Program-made: the position numbers and the translations under genes
The notes under the pieces: model-generated
Seen by the model: the letters and a program-made list of their open reading frames with translations, nothing else
What the model was told of the DNA's origin: nothing
Database searches by the model: none
In this document: positions 14,477-26,270 of the stretch, piece after piece
Layout: every line of letters starts with the position of its first letter
Numbering within the stretch: the first letter of the stretch is position 1
Assembly (NCBI GenBank): GCA_035714365.1
Contig: DASTMB010000090.1
Location: 1-34,758 of the forward strand
From: Mycobacteriales bacterium
GTDB lineage: Bacteria > Actinomycetota > Actinomycetes > BP-191
Length of the DNA stretch: 34,758 bases
Direction: 5' to 3'

Positions 14477-14980
14477 CTAGACGCCGATCTCGACGGCGCG
14501 GCGGGCGTCGGGCTGGAGCACGCCCCACTGGATGAGCTGGTCGGTGAGCGCGCCCGGCGAGGCGTCGTAGATCACCGCGAGCGACCGGAGGTCCTCGTGG
14601 CGGATCGACAGCACCCGGCCGTTGTAGTCGCCGCGCTGGCTCTGGATGGTGGCGGCGTAGCGCGCGAGCGGCGCGGACTGCTCGACCGGCACGTGGGAGA
14701 GCTGCTCGAGGTCGATGATGATCTTCGGCGAGGTCTCGGTGGGGGTGCCGGAGGAGACGACGCCCTCGGGGAGCAGCTCGTTGATCGGCACGCCGTAGAA
14801 CTCGGCGAGCTCGGCGAGCCGCTGCACGGTCACCGCCCGGTCGCCCCGCTCGTACGAGCCGACGACGACGGCCTTCCAGCGGCCGCGGGACTTCTCCTCG
14901 ACGCCGTGCAGGGACAGGCCCTGCTGCGTACGGATCGCCCGCAGGCGGGCACCGAGTGCCTTGGCGTAGTTGTCGCTCAT
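14477..14980 (-). CDS. bldD: BldD-type c-di-GMP-responsive developmental regulator
   Basis: A 167-residue protein strongly resembling Streptomyces BldD. The N-terminal XRE helix-turn-helix (about 1-75) has LGARLRAIRTQQGLSLHGVE, WKAVVVGSYERGDRAVTVQR and LAELAEFYGVP. The C-terminal domain (about 90-167) has RYAATIQSQRGDYNG and the bipartite c-di-GMP signature RxD-x8-RxxD, here RGD and RHED separated by eight residues. In Streptomyces, tetrameric c-di-GMP dimerises BldD, which represses sporulation genes. The ATG at 14980 has AGGAGCC upstream. A promoter with a near-consensus BldD box lies about 180 bases upstream, so autoregulation is expected. Here it may serve a non-developmental role if the host does not sporulate. 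Confidence 0.96.
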   Translation of the reverse strand: MSDNYAKALGARLRAIRTQQGLSLHGVEEKSRGRWKAVVVGSYERGDRAVTVQRLAELAEFYGVPINELLPEGVVSSGTPTETSPKIIIDLEQLSHVPVEQSAPLARYAATIQSQRGDYNGRVLSIRHEDLRSLAVIYDASPGALTDQLIQWGVLQPDARRAVEIGV

Positions 14981-15157
14981 CGTGCCGGCTCCTGTCGCTG
15001 GGTCAGGCAGCACCCTTCGGGTACCGCCGGGCCGAACAACGCGGACGCCGGTCTCACCACTCGCTCCCCCGGGGAGCCGCCTCCGGAGGAGGCGTGGTGA
15101 CCGTTTCGGTCCCCGGGATCGTCGCTTCGGCCGCGCCACCCCGGTCGCCCGGAGTGG

Positions 15158-15170
15158 TTACACACGGTGA
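15158..15170. promoter_or_regulatory. Probable BldD operator (BldD box)
   Basis: TTACACACGGTGA matches the published BldD consensus TnACnC(A/T)GnGTnA at eight of nine defined positions, and reads equally well on the other strand. It overlaps the last base of the bldD -10 box and covers the expected transcription start, an ideal position for autorepression. Confidence 0.7.
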
Positions 15171-15198
15171 CGGTACGGCGGACACGGAGCGTGGTCAA
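15170..15198 (-). promoter_or_regulatory. bldD promoter (-35 and -10)
   Basis: On the minus strand TTGACC (15198-15193) and TACCGT (15175-15170) are separated by exactly 17 bases, a housekeeping-sigma layout. The start point would be near 15163, inside the BldD box. Confidence 0.65.
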
Positions 15199-15261
15199 GC
15201 GGAACGCCGTAACTCGCCGTGTCGCGGCCGCGCCACACCGCGTCCCGGAGCCGTCGCCTGG

Positions 15262-15267
15262 TACCGT
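15262..15267 (+). promoter_or_regulatory. Possible -10 box of the pyr operon
   Basis: TACCGT fits TAnnnT and would start transcription near 15274, just ahead of the PyrR-binding hairpin. No -35 hexamer resembling TTGACA is present at the right distance, so this is tentative. Confidence 0.4.
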
Positions 15268-15281
15268 GCCTGCCGACCACC

Positions 15282-15315
15282 TTTAACGACCCGTCCCGTG
15301 AGGCGGGGAAGGAGG
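15282..15315 (+). promoter_or_regulatory. PyrR-binding RNA hairpin overlapping the pyrR ribosome binding site
   Basis: The upper stem CCCGTC (15290-15295) pairs with GGCGGG (15302-15307), one G-U pair, around the loop CCGTGA. This reproduces the conserved PyrR binding-loop core CCnGnGAGGC, with TTTAACGA on the 5' side as in other PyrR leaders. Below it, ccacctt just upstream can pair at six of seven positions with the Shine-Dalgarno aaggagg (15309-15315). PyrR-UMP stabilising the fold would therefore block translation of pyrR, the mechanism known for Mycobacterium smegmatis pyr. No terminator or antiterminator is visible. Confidence 0.8.
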
Positions 15316-15320
15316 CTCTC

Positions 15321-16001
15321 TTGGCTGCCGCCTACCCAGGCGCCGCCCCGCGTCGCCCGGTCTCCGGCGACGTCGCCGCCGCCCGTCCGGTCCTCGAGCC
15401 CGCCGACGTGACGCGCGCGCTCTCCCGGATCGCCCACGAGATCGTCGAACGCAACCACGGCGCGGCCGGGCTGGTCCTCCTCGGCATCCCGAGCCGCGGC
15501 GTGCCGCTCGCGCGGCGGATCGCCGCGAAGGTCGCCGACGTCGAGGGCACGACGATCCCGGTCGGCTCGCTGGACGTGACGATGCACCGCGACGACCTGC
15601 GCACCCGCGGCATCCGCGCGCTGGCCGAGACGGACCTGCCGGAGGACGGCATCGACGGTCGCACGGTGATCCTCGTCGACGACGTGCTGTTCTCCGGGCG
15701 CACGATCCGCGCCGCGCTGGACGCGCTGATCGACGTCGGGCGGCCCGCCGCGGTGCAGCTCGCGGTGCTGGTCGACCGCGGCCACCGCGAGCTGCCGATC
15801 CGCGCCGACTACGTCGGCAAGAACATCCCGACCTCGCTGCGCGAGGCGGTCCACGTGCTGCTCACGGAGACCGACGGCCGCGACGGCGTGCTGCTCGGCC
15901 CGGCCGACACGGAGGAGGCAACGGCCGCGGCCCGGGGTGGGGCCCCCGGGCTCGTGGCGGAGCGCGGGGCTGGGGCCCCGCGCGGGGAGGAGACACTGTG
16001 A
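15321..16001 (+). CDS. pyrR: PyrR, pyr operon RNA-binding regulator / uracil phosphoribosyltransferase
   Basis: A 226-residue protein. With UMP bound it binds the pyr mRNA leader; many members also make UMP from uracil and PRPP. The PRPP-binding loop [15 protein letters not shown] is at about residues 119-133, preceded by [15 protein letters not shown] and [10 protein letters not shown], both typical. The TTG at 15321 is taken as start because AAGGAGG ends 5 bases before it and the PyrR-binding hairpin ends at that site. The chain has an Ala/Gly-rich tail after about residue 195 that ordinary PyrR (about 180-190 residues) lacks; the tail is coded by sequence forming two G/C hairpins before pyrB. 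The stop overlaps the pyrB GTG by 4 bases. Confidence 0.95.
15931..15983 (+). repeat. Two G/C hairpins at the pyrR-pyrB junction
   Basis: Hairpin A pairs 15931-15937 with 15944-15950 (7 bp). Hairpin B is a perfect 9-bp stem, 15962-15970 with 15975-15983, with a 4-base loop. B ends one base before GGGGAGGAG, the pyrB ribosome binding site. Both lie in the codons for the extra PyrR tail. They could influence pyrB translation or mRNA stability. Confidence 0.6.
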
Positions 16002-16915
16002 ACCGCCACCTGCTCTCGGCAGCGGACCTCTCGCGCGACGACGCGCTGCTCATCCTCGACACCGCCGACCGGCTGGCCGAGCAGGAGCGCATCGCGCAGG
16101 TCAAGAAGTTCCCGACGCTGCGCGGCCGGACCGTCGTCAACCTGTTCTACGAGGACTCCACGCGCACGCGGACGTCGTTCGAGCTGGCCGCGAAGCGGCT
16201 CTCCGCCGACGTCATCAACTTCTCCGCCAAGGGCTCCAGCGTCTCGAAGGGCGAGAGCCTCAAGGACACCGCCTGGACGCTGGAGGCGATGGGCGCCGAC
16301 GCGGTCGTGATCCGGCACAGCGCCTCCGGCGCGCCGCACCGGCTGGCCGGCTGGATCAAGGGCTCGGTCATCAACGCCGGCGACGGCACGCACGAGCACC
16401 CCACCCAGGCGCTGCTCGACGCGTACACGATGCGGCAGCGCACCGGCCGGCTGGAGGACCTGCGGGTCACCATCGTCGGCGACGTCATCCACTCGCGGGT
16501 CGCCCGCTCCAACGTCCTGCTGCTCGCCACGCTCGGCGCGCAGGTGACGCTCGTCGCGCCGCCGACGCTGCTGCCGGTGGGCGTCGAGACGTGGCCGGCC
16601 GAGGTGTCGTACGACCTGGACTCGGTGCTGCCCAAGAGCGACGTCGTGATGATGCTGCGGGTGCAGCGGGAGCGGATGGGCGCCGCGTACTTCCCGTCCA
16701 CGCGCGAGTACAGCCGCCGCTACGGCCTGGACCGCGACCGGGTGCGGCTGCTCACCGACGAGGCGATCGTCATGCACCCCGGCCCGATGAACCGGGGCGT
16801 CGAGATCGCCGCCGAGGTCGCCGACTCGCCGCGGTCCACGATCGTCGACCAGGTCACCAACGGCGTCTCCGTGCGCATGGCGATCCTCTATCTGATGCTG
16901 GGCGGTGCGGAGTGA
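15998..16915 (+). CDS. pyrB: Aspartate carbamoyltransferase catalytic subunit
   Basis: A 305-residue enzyme joining carbamoyl phosphate and aspartate to N-carbamoyl aspartate. The carbamoyl-phosphate loop [13 protein letters not shown] is at residues 50-62 (S54-T55-R56-T57-R58), [10 protein letters not shown] is the second-subunit loop, [10 protein letters not shown] is in the middle, and [12 protein letters not shown] near the end. There is no regulatory subunit gene (pyrI), as in other actinobacteria. GTG 15998 overlaps the pyrR stop, and the end overlaps the pyrC GTG (GTGA). Confidence 0.98.
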
Positions 16916-18195
16916 GCGACTGGCTGATCAAGGGCGTCCTGCTCGACGGGGCGGCCACCGACCTGCGGCTCTCCGACGGGACCGTGGCCGAGGTCGGCAG
17001 CGGGCTCGACGCCGCTGGCGCGCAGGTGCTCGACGCGGACGGGCTGGTCGCGCTGCCGGGCCTGGTCGACCTGCACACGCACCTGCGCGAGCCGGGCCGC
17101 GAGGACGCCGAGACGGTCGAGACCGGGACGGCCGCCGCGGCGCTGGGCGGGTTCACGGCGGTGCACGCGATGGCCAACACCGACCCGGTCGCCGACGTGG
17201 CCGGCGTGGTCGAGCAGGTGTGGCGGCTGGGCCGCGACGCCGGGCACTGCGCCGTTCACCCGGTCGGCGCGGTCACCGTGGGGCTGGCGGGCGAGCAGCT
17301 CGCCGAGCTCGGCGCGATGGCCGACAGCGCGGCGCGGGTCCGCGTCTTCTCCGACGACGGGCGGTGCGTCTCCGACGCGGGGCTGATGCGGCGCGCGCTG
17401 GAGTACGTCAAGGCGTTCGACGGCGTGATCGCCCAGCACGCGCAGGAGCCGTCGCTGACGGCCGGCGCGCAGATGCACGAGGGCGTCGTGTCGGCGCGGC
17501 TCGGGCTGGCCGGCTGGCCGGCGGCGGCCGAGGAGTCGGTCATCGCCCGCGACTGCCTGCTGGCCGCGCACACCGGCAGCCGCCTGCACGTCTGCCACGT
17601 CTCCACCGCCGGCTCGGTCGAGCTGATCCGCTGGGCCAAGTCGAAGGGCTGGCGGGTGACGGCCGAGGTCACGCCGCACCACCTGCTGCTCACGGACGAC
17701 CGGGCGGAGACCTACGACCCGCTGTTCAAGGTCAACCCGCCGCTGCGCACGCGCGCCGACGTCGAGGCGCTGCGCGAGGGGCTCGCCGACGGCACGATCG
17801 ACGCGGTCGCCACCGACCACGCGCCGCACGCGCTGGAGGACAAGGAGACCGAGTGGGGGTGCGCGGCGTTCGGCATGCTCGGGCTGGAGACCGCGCTGTC
17901 CATCGTGGTCGAGACGATGGTCGAGACCGGCCTGCTGGACTGGGCCAGCGTCGCCGACCGGATGTCGTACCGGCCGGCGCGGATCGGGCGGCTGCGCGAC
18001 CAGGGCGTCGCGCTCGGCGCCGGCGCGCCCGCCAACCTCACGCTGCTCGACCCGGCCGCCCGCTGGACGGTCGACCCGCACGCGCTGGCGTCGCGGAGCA
18101 CCAACACGCCGTACGCCGGCATGACGCTGCCCGGCCGGGTGGTCGCGACGTTCCTCCGCGGCCGCCCCACCGTCCTCGACGGAAAGCTGACCTGA
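16912..18195 (+). CDS. pyrC: Dihydroorotase
   Basis: A 427-residue zinc amidohydrolase of the long, class I type. [10 protein letters not shown] carries the first metal ligands (H55, H57). Further metal/catalytic segments are [27 protein letters not shown] and VATDHAPHA with the catalytic Asp at about 302. It closes carbamoyl aspartate to dihydroorotate. GTG 16912 lies in the pyrB stop. The pyrC stop shares one base with the following ATG (TGATG). Confidence 0.97.
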
Positions 18196-19808
18196 TGCTG
18201 CGCTACGTCCTCACCGCGCTGCTGCTGCTCGCGTTCCTCGGCTGCGTCGCGCTGATGCGCCGCGGCTGGCGGCGGCGCGCGGGCCGCGACGCGGCCCTGC
18301 CGGCCCTGCCGGAGCCGCCCGCGACGCTCGGCCCGGACGTCGTGCCGCCGCTCGTCGGCCTCTACCTCGGCACGACGCGCACCGGCGAGTGGCTGGACCG
18401 GGTCGCCGCCCACGGCCTCGGCGCCCGCGCCAACGCGCGGCTGCGGCTCGTCCCGGAGGGCGTGGTCGTCGTCCGCGACGGCAGCCCGGACGGGTTCATC
18501 CCGCGCGCCGACATCGCGGGGGCGGTCGTCACCGACGCGCAGGCGGGCAAGTGGGTCGGTGAGGGCGGCGTGCTGCTGGTCACCTGGCGGCTCGGCGGCA
18601 CGCAGGTCGACAGCGGGTTCCGGGCAGACACCGAGACGCACGGAAGGTGGGCGGAGGCGTTGCGGCCGAAGCAGGTGCAGGGCGCTCCGGCGCTGGTCGG
18701 CCGGGCCGCGCGCCCGGCGCTGCTGGTGCTGGAGGACGGGCGGTCGTTCCGCGGCGAGGCGTACGGCGCGGCGGGCGAGGCGCTCGGCGAGGCCGTCTTC
18801 AACACCGGCATGACCGGCTACCAGGAGACGCTCACCGACCCGTCGTACCACCGGCAGGTCGTCGTCATGACGGCGCCGCACATCGGCAACACCGGCGTCA
18901 ACGACGCCGACGACGAGAGCGGCCGCATCTGGGTGGCCGGCTACGTCGTCCGCGACCCGGCGCGCGTTGCCTCGTCGTGGCGTGCCGAACGCGGCCTGGA
19001 CGCCGAGCTGAAGCGGCAGGGCGTCGTCGGCATCGGCGGCGTCGACACCCGCGCCGTCACCCGGCACCTGCGCGAGCGCGGCGCGATGCGCTGCGCGGTC
19101 TCCTCGACCGGTGACGACGCCGACACGGTGCTCGCGCGGGTGCTGGCGAGCCCGTCGATGAGCGGCGCCGACCTGGCGCGCGAGGTGTCCACCGCGCAGC
19201 CGTACGTCGTGCCGGCGAGCGGTGACCGCCGCCATCGGGTCGCGGCGCTGGACCTCGGCATGAAGCGGTCCATCCCCGCCTACCTGGCCCACCACGGGTG
19301 CGAGGTGCACGTGCTGCCCGCGACGGCGACGGCGGCGGAGATCCTCGCGACCGAGCCGGACGGCGTGTTCCTCTCCAACGGCCCCGGCGACCCGGCCGCG
19401 ACCGAGTACGCGGTCGACGCGCTGCGCGGCGTGCTGGGGCGGCGCCCTGTGTTCGGCATCTGCCTCGGCCACCAGCTCCTCGGCCGCGCGCTCGGGCTGG
19501 GCACGTACAAGCTGACGTTCGGCCACCGCGGCGTGAACCAGCCGGTCCAGGACCTCGCCACCAAGCGCGTCGCGATCACCAGCCACAACCACGGCTTCGC
19601 GGTGGCCGCGCCGACCGCGCCGGAGACGGCGTTCGGCCGGGTGGCGGTGAGCCACGTCGACCTCAACGACGGCGTGGTCGAGGGGCTGCGCTGCCTCGAC
19701 GTGCCGGCGTTCTCGGTGCAGTACCACCCCGAGGCCGCGCCGGGGCCGCACGACGGCAGCGGGCTGTTCGCGGAGTTCGCGGCGCTGATGGCGGGAGCGC
19801 GGGTGTGA
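18195..19808 (+). CDS. carA: Membrane/PH-like domain protein fused to carbamoyl-phosphate synthase small subunit
   Basis: One uninterrupted 537-residue frame. Residues 1-160 form a small membrane protein: helix RYVLTALLLLAFLGCVALM (3-21), basic stretch RRGWRRRAGR, then a PH-like beta domain (PPLVGLYLGTTRTGEWLDRV; WVGEGGVLLVTWRLGGTQVD). This corresponds to the separate gene between pyrC and carA in Mycobacterium (Rv1382) and Streptomyces. From about residue 173 (RPALLVLEDGRSF) it is a complete CarA, the glutaminase of carbamoyl-phosphate synthase: FNTGMTGYQETLTDPSY, FLSNGPGDP, nucleophile Cys423 in FGICLGHQLL, His511/Glu513 in YHPEA. No stop triplet exists in any forward frame from 18601 to 18810, so one indel cannot hide a gene boundary. 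TTG 18660 and GTG 18675 are weak internal starts that might give some free CarA. Confidence 0.93.
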   Translation: MLRYVLTALLLLAFLGCVALMRRGWRRRAGRDAALPALPEPPATLGPDVVPPLVGLYLGTTRTGEWLDRVAAHGLGARANARLRLVPEGVVVVRDGSPDGFIPRADIAGAVVTDAQAGKWVGEGGVLLVTWRLGGTQVDSGFRADTETHGRWAEALRPKQVQGAPALVGRAARPALLVLEDGRSFRGEAYGAAGEALGEAVFNTGMTGYQETLTDPSYHRQVVVMTAPHIGNTGVNDADDESGRIWVAGYVVRDPARVASSWRAERGLDAELKRQGVVGIGGVDTRAVTRHLRERGAMRCAVSSTGDDADTVLARVLASPSMSGADLAREVSTAQPYVVPASGDRRHRVAALDLGMKRSIPAYLAHHGCEVHVLPATATAAEILATEPDGVFLSNGPGDPAATEYAVDALRGVLGRRPVFGICLGHQLLGRALGLGTYKLTFGHRGVNQPVQDLATKRVAITSHNHGFAVAAPTAPETAFGRVAVSHVDLNDGVVEGLRCLDVPAFSVQYHPEAAPGPHDGSGLFAEFAALMAGARV

Positions 19809-20218
19809 ACGTTGAGCAGGCCGCCGACGAGGCCCGTCGCGCCGGCAAGAACATCGGCGCCGACGCCCGCGAGCTCGGCGAGGTGACGCTCGACGCGTCC
19901 CACCCGGAACGCACCCCGGAGCAGCAGGCGCTCGCCGACGCGGCGGTCGCGCTGCTGCGCGAGGAGATCGAGCGGATGGCCGCGCTGCGCGAGGAGCTCC
20001 TGGCGGAGAAGGAGCGCGGCGCGCCGGCCCGGCCGTCGCCGCGGCTGGACATGATGGCGGCGCGGCTGGAGGGCGCGAGCCGGTTCGCGCTGCGGCTCGG
20101 GCTGGTCACGCCGGCGGAGGCGCGGCAGGTCTGGCACGAGGCCGCGCTGGCAGGGTTGCACGACCGCCCCTCGACGGGGCGCGCCGAGGACGACGACGTT
20201 CGAGGAGGACGCGAGTGA
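19805..20218 (+). CDS. Small helical protein between carA and carB, unknown function
   Basis: 137 residues, family not recognised. It has no membrane segment or Cys. It is rich in Ala, Glu and Arg, with a probable long helix or coiled coil at about 40-75 ([20 protein letters not shown] and on) and a second helical part ([20 protein letters not shown]). The C-terminus is charged and probably disordered ([12 protein letters not shown]). GTG 19805 lies in the carA stop and the end overlaps the next GTG, so it is translated as part of the pyr operon. In Mycobacterium and Streptomyces carA and carB are neighbours, so this gene looks like an insertion specific to this lineage. An adaptor role is a guess. 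Confidence 0.75.
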
Positions 20219-20514
20219 GCACCAACGACGGGTCGCGGGTCGAGGCGGCCGAGGCCGGCGTGCACGCCGAGCAGGGGGAGCGCGCCGCGCACGGCCACGT
20301 CGACGCGCCCGAGGCGGTGTCCGGCGCGCACCACGCGCCGTCCCACGGCGTCGGCCACGACGACGACCACGGCTCGCACGGCGGCCACGGCGCGGACCCG
20401 AACGCAGGCGTCCTGCGCGGCGAGGCGCCGACGCCCGCCTGGGTGTGGACGGCCGCGCTGATCGGCCTCGTGACGATCGGCTTCTGCTTCTGGCTCGCCG
20501 TCAAGATCGGCTGA
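20215..20514 (+). CDS. His-rich single-span membrane protein between carA and carB
   Basis: 99 residues, family not recognised. Residues 1-70 are polar and hold ten His, concentrated in [20 protein letters not shown], with neighbouring Asp. PTPAW is followed by a C-terminal membrane helix (about 75-97, [19 protein letters not shown]) and KIG. The His/Asp tail would be cytoplasmic or external depending on insertion; the short KIG end does not decide. It resembles a metal-binding tail-anchored protein. GTG 20215 overlaps the preceding stop, and carB starts 5 bases after its end. Its place beside a membrane-tethered CarA suggests a membrane-linked carbamoyl-phosphate synthase, but that is inference. 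Confidence 0.75.
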
Positions 20515-20519
20515 CCCAC

Positions 20520-23731
<3,212 letters not shown>

Positions 23732-23732
<1 letters not shown>

Positions 23733-24577
23733 TGCCGCCGGTGCAGGTCGCGGGCGAGGTCCTCGCGCTGAAGCGGATGGGCGCGTACTGGTCGATGACC
23801 GTCGCGGCGCCCGGCATCGCCGAGCAGGTGCGGCCGGGTCACTTCGTGGCCGTCGCGGTCGGCGGCGCCGAGACGTCGATGCTGCTGCGGCGGGCGTTCA
23901 GCTTGTACTCGGCCAGCGACCGTGGCGTCTACGGCGGCACGGTGGAGTTCGTGTTCGCGGTGCACGGCAAGGGCACCGAGTGGCTGGCGCGGCAGCGGCA
24001 GGGCGACCCGCTCGACGTCGTGGGGCCGCTGGGCCGGCCGTTCAAGCTGCCGAAGGAGCCGGTGACGGCGACGCTCGTCGGCGGCGGGTACGGCACGGCA
24101 CCGCTGTTCGGGCTGGCCGAGGCGCTGCGGGCGCGCGGCTGCCGGATCGACTTCGTGGTCGGCGCGGCGACGGGCGACCGGCTGTTCGGGGCGCTGGAGG
24201 CCAAGCGCATCTCCTCCTCGGTGGCGTTCACGACCGACGACGGGTCGGTGGGCGAGCGGGGCCGGGTGAGCGACGTGCTGCCCGAGGTGCTGGCGCGCAC
24301 CGGCAGTGACCTCGTCTACGCCTGCGGCCCGATGGCGATGCTGCGCGCGGTCGCCGAGATCGCGGCCGCGCACGGCATCCCGAGCCAGGTGGCGGTCGAG
24401 GAGTCGATGGCCTGCGGCATCGGCGTCTGCATGACGTGCGTGCTCCCGGCGCGCGGCGAGGACGGGCAGACGCGGATGGTGCGGTCGTGCGTGGAGGGGC
24501 CGGTGTTCATGGGCGACCAGCTCCGCTGGGACGCCCTCGGCACCGTCCCCGCCGACTGTGTGGGAGCCCCGCGATGA
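23732..24577 (+). CDS. pyrK: Dihydroorotate dehydrogenase electron-transfer subunit PyrK
   Basis: A 281-residue iron-sulfur flavoprotein of the ferredoxin-reductase-like family. The FAD motif is LLRRAFSLYSAS, the NAD domain begins with TLVGGGYGTAPLFGLAEAL and includes VYACGPMAM, and the [2Fe-2S] cluster is held by C228, C233, C236 and C253 (CGIGVCMTC ... RSC). It passes electrons from dihydroorotate via PyrD to NAD. The ATG shares a base with the carB stop (TGATG) and the end overlaps the pyrD ATG. Together they form a class 1B enzyme, unlike the quinone-linked class 2 PyrD of mycobacteria. Confidence 0.95.
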
Positions 24578-25581
24578 GCGAGATGGTCACCGTCCGGACG
24601 GTCCCCGACACCGATCCGATGCCGCTGGGCATCGACCTGTCGACGCGGCTCGCCGGCGTCTACTTCCCGAACCCCGTCTTCACCGCGTCCGGCTGCGCGG
24701 CCGCCGGGCAGGAGCTCGGCCAGTTCTTCGACGTCGCCAAGCTCGGCGCGATGGTGACGAAGTCGATCATGCTGGAGCCGCGCTCCGGCCGGCCGACGCC
24801 CCGCATGGCGGAGACGCCGAGCGGGATGCTCAACTCCATCGGGCTCCAGGGCCCGGGCATCGAGACGTTCCTCCAGCGGGACCTGCCGTGGCTCGCCGAA
24901 CGCGGCGCGCGCACGGTCGTGTCGATCGCCGGGTCGAGCGTCGAGGAGTACGCGCGGCTCGCGCAGAAGCTCCGCGGCCGCCCCGGGCTGACCATGCTCG
25001 AGGTCAACATCTCCTGCCCCAACGTCGAGGACCGCGGCACGGTGTTCGCCTGCGACGCCCGCTCCGCCGCCGACGTCGTCAACGCCGTGAAGCGCGTGTC
25101 CAGCGTGCCGGTGTTCGCGAAGCTGTCGCCCGACGTCACCGACATCGTCTCGATCGCCCGCGCCGTGGTCGACGGTGGCGCCGACGGCCTGTCGATGATC
25201 AACACGCTGCTCGGCCTGGCCATCGACACGAAGACGATGCGCCCGGTGCTCGCCGGCGTCACCGGCGGGCTGTCCGGCCCGGCGATCCGCCCGGTCGCCG
25301 TGCGCTGCGTGTGGCAGGTGCACCAGGCGCTGCCGGAGGTGCCGATCATCGGCATGGGCGGCATCCGCACCGGCGTCGACGCGCTGGAGTTCCTCCTCGC
25401 GGGGGCGTCGGCCGTGTCGGTGGGGACGGCGGTGTTCGGCGACCCGAACGCGCCCGTGCGCATCGTCGAGGAGCTGCGTTCGGCGCTGGCCGAGCGCGGG
25501 ATCACCAGCGTCGCCGACGTCGTCGGCCGCGCCCACCGCCCACCCGAGACACATGTACCGGAAGGACCCGACCCCGAGTGA
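24574..25581 (+). CDS. pyrD: Dihydroorotate dehydrogenase, class 1B catalytic subunit
   Basis: A 335-residue FMN TIM-barrel enzyme oxidising dihydroorotate to orotate. The active-site base is a Cys (C148 in VNISCPNVE), the mark of class 1 enzymes; class 2 has Ser. Other conserved parts are NPVFTASGC, NSIGLQGPG, FAKLSPDVTDI, SMINTLLGLAID, GGLSGPAIRP and GMGGIRTGVDALEF. No N-terminal membrane helix is present, consistent with a soluble PyrD-PyrK heterotetramer. It starts at ATG 24574 in the pyrK stop and ends overlapping the pyrF GTG. A poorly conserved tail follows GRAH. Confidence 0.96.
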   Translation: MSEMVTVRTVPDTDPMPLGIDLSTRLAGVYFPNPVFTASGCAAAGQELGQFFDVAKLGAMVTKSIMLEPRSGRPTPRMAETPSGMLNSIGLQGPGIETFLQRDLPWLAERGARTVVSIAGSSVEEYARLAQKLRGRPGLTMLEVNISCPNVEDRGTVFACDARSAADVVNAVKRVSSVPVFAKLSPDVTDIVSIARAVVDGGADGLSMINTLLGLAIDTKTMRPVLAGVTGGLSGPAIRPVAVRCVWQVHQALPEVPIIGMGGIRTGVDALEFLLAGASAVSVGTAVFGDPNAPVRIVEELRSALAERGITSVADVVGRAHRPPETHVPEGPDPE

Positions 25582-26270
25582 CCGCCCCGATCGCCGTAGC
25601 CCTGGACGCGCCCGACGTCGACACCGCGGCCCGGTGGGCCAACGCCGTCCAGCGGTACGTGTCGGTGCTCAAGGTGGGGCTGGAGCTGTTCTGCCGGCAC
25701 GGGCCGGACGTCGTCAACGTCGTGCGCGGCGGCACCGGGCTGGACCTGTTCCTCGACCTGAAGCTGCACGACATCCCCAACACCGTCGCCGGCGCGGCGC
25801 GGTCGGTGGCGCGGCTGAAGCCCGCGTACCTGACCGTGCACGCGAGCGGCGGGCGCGACATGGTGCGCGCGGCCGTCGAGGCGGCGCCGGACGTGAAGAT
25901 CGCCGCGGTGACGCTGCTGACCAGCCTGGACGAGCACGCGTTGCGGGTGCTCGGGGTGGACCAGCAGCCGCGCGACGTGGTGCTGCGGCTCGCGTCGGTG
26001 GCGGTCGAGGCCGGCGCGCGGGCGGTCGTGTGCAGCCCCCAGGAGGTCGCGGCGGTGCGTGCCGAGGTCGGCGACGGCATCACGCTCGTCACGCCCGGCG
26101 TCCGGCTGGAGGGCGGCGACGCGCAGGACCAGGCGCGGGTCGCGACGCCGGCGCGGGCGCTGGCCGACGGCGCCGACCTGCTCGTCATCGGCCGCCCGAT
26201 CACCGGCGCCAGCGACCCCGGCGCGGCGGCCGCGGCGATCGCCGCCGACCTGCAACGGCTGCGGGCGTAG
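25578..26270 (+). CDS. pyrF: Orotidine 5'-phosphate decarboxylase
   Basis: A 230-residue TIM-barrel enzyme making UMP from OMP. It starts IAVALDAPDVDTAARW, has the catalytic Asp/Lys array DLKLHDIPNT (K62), VHASGGRDMVRAA, VTPGVRL and VIGRPITGASDP at the phosphate-binding end. This short form is the common bacterial type, not the longer type found in mycobacteria. GTG 25578 overlaps the pyrD stop. The last enzymatic gene of the pyr set here; pyrE (orotate phosphoribosyltransferase) is missing from the window and must lie elsewhere. Confidence 0.97.
   Translation: MTAPIAVALDAPDVDTAARWANAVQRYVSVLKVGLELFCRHGPDVVNVVRGGTGLDLFLDLKLHDIPNTVAGAARSVARLKPAYLTVHASGGRDMVRAAVEAAPDVKIAAVTLLTSLDEHALRVLGVDQQPRDVVLRLASVAVEAGARAVVCSPQEVAAVRAEVGDGITLVTPGVRLEGGDAQDQARVATPARALADGADLLVIGRPITGASDPGAAAAAIAADLQRLRA

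Follow-up and report, generated by a model that had tools for sequence, protein, structure and literature searches.

In Mycobacterium smegmatis, the pyr operon is reportedly repressed by PyrR at the level of translation. In the 2007 work of Fields and Switzer, transcriptional fusions carrying a ribosome site of their own are said not to have been regulated, and the mechanism was reportedly proposed for mycobacteria and probably for numerous other bacteria. In Bacillus subtilis, PyrR acts as an attenuator at several sites per operon and needs the terminal loop, the top of the upper stem, and a purine-rich bulge of its target, according to a report on that system (PMC7430163). We analyzed the pyr locus of a Mycobacteriales bacterium in a window of 34,758 nucleotides, by which we mean the whole stretch of DNA under study. 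The hairpin ahead of its pyrR gene is real, and from its sequence it is best read as a PyrR-binding loop that masks the pyrR Shine-Dalgarno sequence, as in the preliminary description of this DNA.

The whole element occupies positions 15274/15275-15318 of the forward strand. It is supported by a match to the covariance model R1 described below and by the minimum-energy fold, and it aligns, below the gathering score, with the Rfam PyrR model RF00515. It consists of two stacked stems, which were recovered as the minimum-energy fold of positions 15274-15335. In the upper part (15290..15307), CCCGTC at 15290-15295 and GGCGGG at 15302-15307 form six pairs, one of which is U-G, and enclose the hexaloop CCGTGA (15296-15301). 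In the lower stem, CCACCTT at 15277-15283 faces AAGGAGG at 15309-15315, which is the pyrR Shine-Dalgarno sequence, with six pairs and one A-A mismatch; one more pair, U15284-G15308, is gained, making the complete 5' arm CCACCTTT (15277..15284). The lower stem can thus be written as CC-A-CCUUU with G-AAGG-A-GG, and an internal bulge, AACGA, is present on the 5' side only. At the place of the A-A mismatch, a U-A pair is found in 50 of 66 distinct leaders. The start codon of pyrR, the TTG at 15321, lies 5 nt past the Shine-Dalgarno sequence. The preliminary description had claimed a 6-bp stem with a CCGTGA loop, pairing of ccacctt with aaggagg, and a TTG start, all of which were found in place. 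The PyrR binding-loop core that it proposed was borne out by an R1 score of 60.9 bits and by alignment to the loop region of RF00515. Its interval, 15282-15315, located the hairpin correctly but left out most of the 5' lower arm.

From its sequence, the protein encoded behind the hairpin is a clear PyrR (pyrR, 15321..16001; NF003547, 284.7 bits with a cut-off of 230; Protein Data Bank relatives 5iao and 1w30 at E about 1e-57). Two segments of Bacillus PyrR, one around RIAHE and a second of 12 residues, which we take to be RNA-contacting, are both conserved in the window PyrR, with S in place of T just before RIAHE, likewise seen in M. tuberculosis 5iao. The gene is followed on the same strand by pyrB (15998..16915; NF002032, 420.6 bits) and pyrC (16912..18195; Pfam Amidohydro_1 and DHOase), each entered through a GTGA overlap, and by carA (18195..19808). 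Two small coupled reading frames (19805-20218 and 20215-20514), neither of which gave a Pfam match, are followed by carB (20520..23732, its start codon read from the junction; NF003671, 1605.5 bits), a gene for a pyrK-like dihydroorotate dehydrogenase electron-transfer subunit (23732..24577; PF10418 and PF00175), pyrD (24574..25581; PF01180, 276.6 bits), and pyrF (25578..26270; PF00215, 174.4 bits), with which the coupled run ends. Stop and start codons overlap at every junction from pyrR to pyrF save for a 5-nt gap before carB, the start codons being our reading of the junctions. These overlaps and domain matches agree with the coupled operon running through pyrF that had been claimed.

Two features of the carA region were observed in addition. 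The second small frame, between carA and carB, encodes a histidine-rich protein with a hydrophobic end. The window CarA (18195-19808, 537 aa; PF25362, PF00988, and PF00117 in a single frame) is a fusion protein in which the CarA part is preceded by a hydrophobic N-terminal segment and by a PH domain of the bacterial type; in other genomes, the small PH-domain protein is encoded separately, just ahead of carA. The frame holds no stop codon but its final one. The fusion is present in all three genomes of the genus, and among the matches listed for 60 class genomes, none but these three spans the query without a break; in one of the genomes (G023), the PH-domain and CarA parts were both found in one open frame. 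This arrangement suggests a membrane-tethered carbamoyl-phosphate synthase subunit.

Upstream of the hairpin, an extended -10 element, TGGTACCGT, is located at 15259..15267 on the forward strand. Of 82 leaders, 62 have its pattern, TGnTAnnnT, at a distance of 10-56 nt 5' of the lower arm, compared with 1.6 +/- 1.2 (maximum, 5) in 200 shuffles, and 0 have it on the reverse strand. A sigma-70 scan of positions 14980-15500, in which both -35 and -10 elements were needed, gave zero promoter-like sites. The extended -10 element, as a putative promoter, predicts a transcript start near 15274, which would make the hairpin the 5' end of the message. A start downstream of 15290, which would speak against the proposed control, is thus not expected. 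A consensus scan of the same interval, 14980-15500, found no terminator-like site, in accordance with the earlier claim of a leader without a terminator.

These properties place the locus close to the pyr operon of M. smegmatis. In both, a PyrR loop is set on the first ribosome site, a terminator is absent, and pyrR is the first gene; the present locus has the binding loop, its overlap with the Shine-Dalgarno sequence, and PyrR encoded within the operon, and no terminator was found. It differs from the M. smegmatis operon in belonging to another genus, in its TTG start, in the A-A mismatch of the lower stem, and in a divergent bldD gene with a riboswitch. By analogy with M. smegmatis, from which PyrR binding, UMP dependence, and repression are carried over, the hairpin is very probably a translational operator that depends on PyrR. 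Transcription of the pyr mRNA would begin at about 15274, with the binding loop at its extreme 5' end. When PyrR is absent, the hairpin would breathe and leave AAGGAGG open to ribosomes; PyrR with UMP or UTP would most likely lock it. With the Shine-Dalgarno sequence held in the lower stem and covered by PyrR, initiation at TTG 15321 would stop. Because the downstream genes overlap start-on-stop, the entire run from pyrR to pyrF would be repressed together.

The same binding event might have a mainly transcriptional output, in which the block of translation is only the trigger and a stalled mRNA, left without ribosomes, undergoes Rho termination or more rapid decay. Polarity is expected in an operon of such length and tight coupling, and the failure to find an intrinsic terminator leaves room for Rho. 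However, the M. smegmatis fusions mentioned above, which had their own ribosome site, reportedly escaped regulation at the transcriptional level, and we consider a mainly transcriptional output unlikely.

Conservation of the leader was examined in a sample of pyrR loci. We took 80 loci of PyrR relatives (the best 80 of 574) and two other genomes of the genus; the organism's own genus, family, and order are each sampled by the same three genomes. A first MAFFT alignment was dropped since the CCTTTAA arm was one column out of register in some rows and since its rows had been chosen by TCCNGNGAGG. For the covariance model R1, we used 29 leaders that share a single linker length, with the organism's own genus left out, and the remaining leaders were aligned by R1 itself. 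When applied to the window and 83 pyrR loci, one of which (L001) is the window's own, R1 gave 82 matches; 40 of these matched rows are the same as rows used in training, and the presence of the other 42 does not follow from the way the model was built. At E <= 1, R1 missed the loci of a Peptococcaceae member (L074) and of Dichloromethanomonas (L081), and GTCCNGNGAGAC hairpins were present by eye in both.

Compensatory changes in the stem had been named beforehand as a test of the hairpin, and they were found. In 66 distinct model-aligned leaders, 89.4% of the cells were paired. Two-sided changes occurred in 9 of 15 pairs, compared with 4.3 +/- 0.6 in shuffles, none of 500 being as high, and the number of cells with both partners changed was 39 (14.4 +/- 3.2 in shuffles). 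Fitting of the alignment to the structure favors that structure; in slid controls, between 1 and 5 pairs showed two-sided changes. Covariation was clearest in the third pair of the upper stem (CG in 60 leaders, GC in 3, UA in 2, and AU in 1). It was also seen in the three outermost pairs of the lower stem, which 19-25 of the 66 leaders lack. The inner pairs of the lower stem were nearly constant (CG in 65 and 66 of 66, and UA in 65 of 66), as expected if these bases are also under constraint from the ribosome. Covariation thus supports mainly the upper stem, and the pairing of the inner lower stem is left unproved by it. Pairing in that region gains support from two leaders (L015 and L042), inspected by eye, in which the CCTTTAA arm is gone and CCTCC stands instead, still matching GGAGG, and from the computed pairing described next.

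The masking of the Shine-Dalgarno sequence was evaluated from computed pairing. In the window leader, the mean computed pairing probability of the Shine-Dalgarno sequence was 0.84 and fell to 0.605 +/- 0.088 when the 5' arm was shuffled, with 1 of 300 shuffles reaching the observed value. Across the 82 leaders, shuffling of the 5' arms lowered the mean computed pairing from 0.78 to 0.54; the real arm surpassed the shuffled arms in 75 leaders and did not in 7. An in-frame start codon was located 4-11 nt past AAGG(AGG) in 74 of the 80 scorable leaders among the 83 loci, the scoring having left out L065 and L071, which were unparsed, and L083, in which no start was found.

Furthermore, R1 was applied to genomes sampled from the class and the phylum. 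Within the class, 289 of 296 genomes and 110 of 114 genera were matched. In the seven misses, a search for pyrR homologues at E <= 0.001 found none in four genomes and a weak match only in two (E 5.6e-5 and 1.6e-4; 26 and 37% identity); of these six assemblies, three have a completeness of just 75-82%. The seventh encodes a strong PyrR, yet the bases ahead of its pyrR read N. The co-occurrence of hairpin and pyrR is read from the side of these seven misses only. In the phylum sample, R1 matched 62 of 119 genomes, ten of them from the organism's own class, which leaves 52 matches among 109 genomes of other classes. Beyond the class, the element is less widespread. In Corynebacterium, four leaders (L054, L061, L063, and L084) carry a variant, CCGCAC...GAGGCGG, in which C-G replaces the U-G pair and there is no closing C-G pair; this hints at an altered PyrR recognition.

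A plain hairpin that hides the Shine-Dalgarno sequence under structure or temperature control, with no part for PyrR, would agree with the fold, which hides that sequence by itself; in the computed ensemble, opening of the Shine-Dalgarno sequence costs about 6.1 kcal/mol. The loop, however, is conserved beyond the needs of pairing: four of its six positions, 1, 3, 5, and 6 (C, G, G, and A), and the next two G residues do not vary in any of the 66 distinct leaders. These leaders were found by the model, and 40 of the 82 matched rows are identical to training rows. In addition, the six class genomes with neither a hairpin match nor masked bases have no convincing pyrR. Control by the fold without PyrR is thus very improbable.

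The present element shares with the B. subtilis-type attenuators the hexaloop, the top of the upper stem, a purine-rich internal bulge, and a CCUUUAA...AAGG lower stem. In those attenuators the loop serves as an anti-antiterminator, whereas here AAGG forms part of a longer Shine-Dalgarno sequence, and the leader showed neither an antiterminator nor a recognizable terminator. RF00515 gave 28.4 bits in a 451-base search versus a gathering score of 54, missing its threshold, and zero matches at E <= 0.001 on the whole genome of the organism; it was dropped as a detector, being too weak here. In the RF00515 alignment, the binding loop faces the first part of the model, and the 71 model positions of the antiterminator/terminator region face 1 base here. 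The element is not assigned to RF00515 as modelled, since it falls short of the gathering score and lacks the attenuator region. Transcription attenuation of the B. subtilis type, with an antiterminator and a terminator downstream, could call on the alignment of the loop to the first part of RF00515; against it stand the near absence of the 71-position stretch, the empty terminator scan, and the distance from the Shine-Dalgarno sequence to the start codon, just 5 nt here and within the short range given above in most scored leaders. We regard attenuation as scarcely credible at this locus.

Folding energy was dropped as evidence because it was uninformative: the stability of the fold was not unusual (z-score, -0.02), and 90 of 200 shuffles folded equally well. 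With an ordinary fold energy and RF00515 below its threshold, the evidence beyond chance is comparative. On the organism's own genome, R1 scored the element at E 1.5e-14, and the runner-up place reached 14.5 bits (E 2.66). The word CCNGNGAGG occurs 15 times in the window on both strands, and all six upper-stem pairs accompany it at the PyrR hairpin only. A chance hairpin in GC-rich DNA, with which the folding z-score would agree, has a negligible probability in view of that E value and of the presence of the element across the sampled class.

We also detected copies of the element away from pyrR. Two R1 matches were obtained in 16 of 296 class genomes, 11 of which belong to one other family (f26). 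In all 10 f26 genomes in which both sites were examined, the pyrR hairpin is accompanied by a second one immediately ahead of a frame that starts as CarA (for example, L137:2346 and 16857 on the forward strand, L136 on the reverse strand, and the loci L162-L177); in the eleventh (G294), the pyrR site alone was looked at. The carA frames begin, e.g., with LEDGRTFRGESFGAEGETFGEAVFSTGM... and were named by eye against the window CarA, which has Pfam domains; AAGGAG(G) forms the 3' arm of each hairpin. By eye, TAnnnT was seen upstream in all 17 stretches inspected. The two-match genomes outside f26 are G025, G075, G131, G132, and G159; in G025, G131, and G132, the second match is a weak one of 25-27 bits, and in G075 and G159 it is close to the start of a contig. 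Recurrence of the hairpin at the ribosome site of another gene would be expected of a translational operator. Among the openly readable papers listed on PyrR, we noticed no report of a carA site. One might speculate that hiding of the Shine-Dalgarno sequence was the original form of PyrR control, that the CCUUUAA...AAGG stem was later reused as the Bacillus anti-antiterminator, and that a portable 45-nt operator was copied to other operon heads, as at carA in this one family; we hold this history to be rather improbable.

The divergent neighbor of pyrR is bldD (14980 to 14477, reverse strand; NF050110), and BldD is described as a c-di-GMP-binding regulator (PMC9530166). The bldD leader contains a c-di-GMP-II-GAG aptamer (RF03169) at 15138-15037 on the reverse strand, which scored 58.8 bits with a threshold of 40. 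This raises the possibility of c-di-GMP feedback on its own receptor. In 118 class genomes, the aptamer was detected in 40 at E <= 0.001, and in at least 8 of the 118 it is separated by no more than about 400 nt from the PyrR hairpin, which is on the opposite strand (G000-G002, G008, G012, G016, G057, and G073). An Rfam scan of 20 loci placed it beside the PyrR hairpin in five, namely three of the organism's own genus, L015, and L042. The neighboring gene passed as BldD in six of the six loci tested, and that of L185 was also BldD by eye. PMC9943018 names c-di-GMP-II-GAG, and bldD and pyrR are both absent from its text. Elsewhere in the organism's own genome, three c-di-GMP-II-GAG aptamers lie on one strand within 2.4 kb (G000:C64:81820-84225, forward strand), the genome total being six matches, and a similar trio is present on C42 of another genome of the sample (G002).

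The operator type is already known from mycobacteria; the class-wide count and the copies at carA add modestly to it. The 45-nt model now detects the element where the Rfam PyrR model stays under its threshold. The element is a candidate for a portable translation switch, controlled by uridine nucleotides, for high-GC hosts, and its carA copy suggests that it can serve the ribosome site of another gene. The presence of the element in 289 of 296 genomes indicates that a PyrR translational operator of the M. smegmatis kind would be near-universal in its class.
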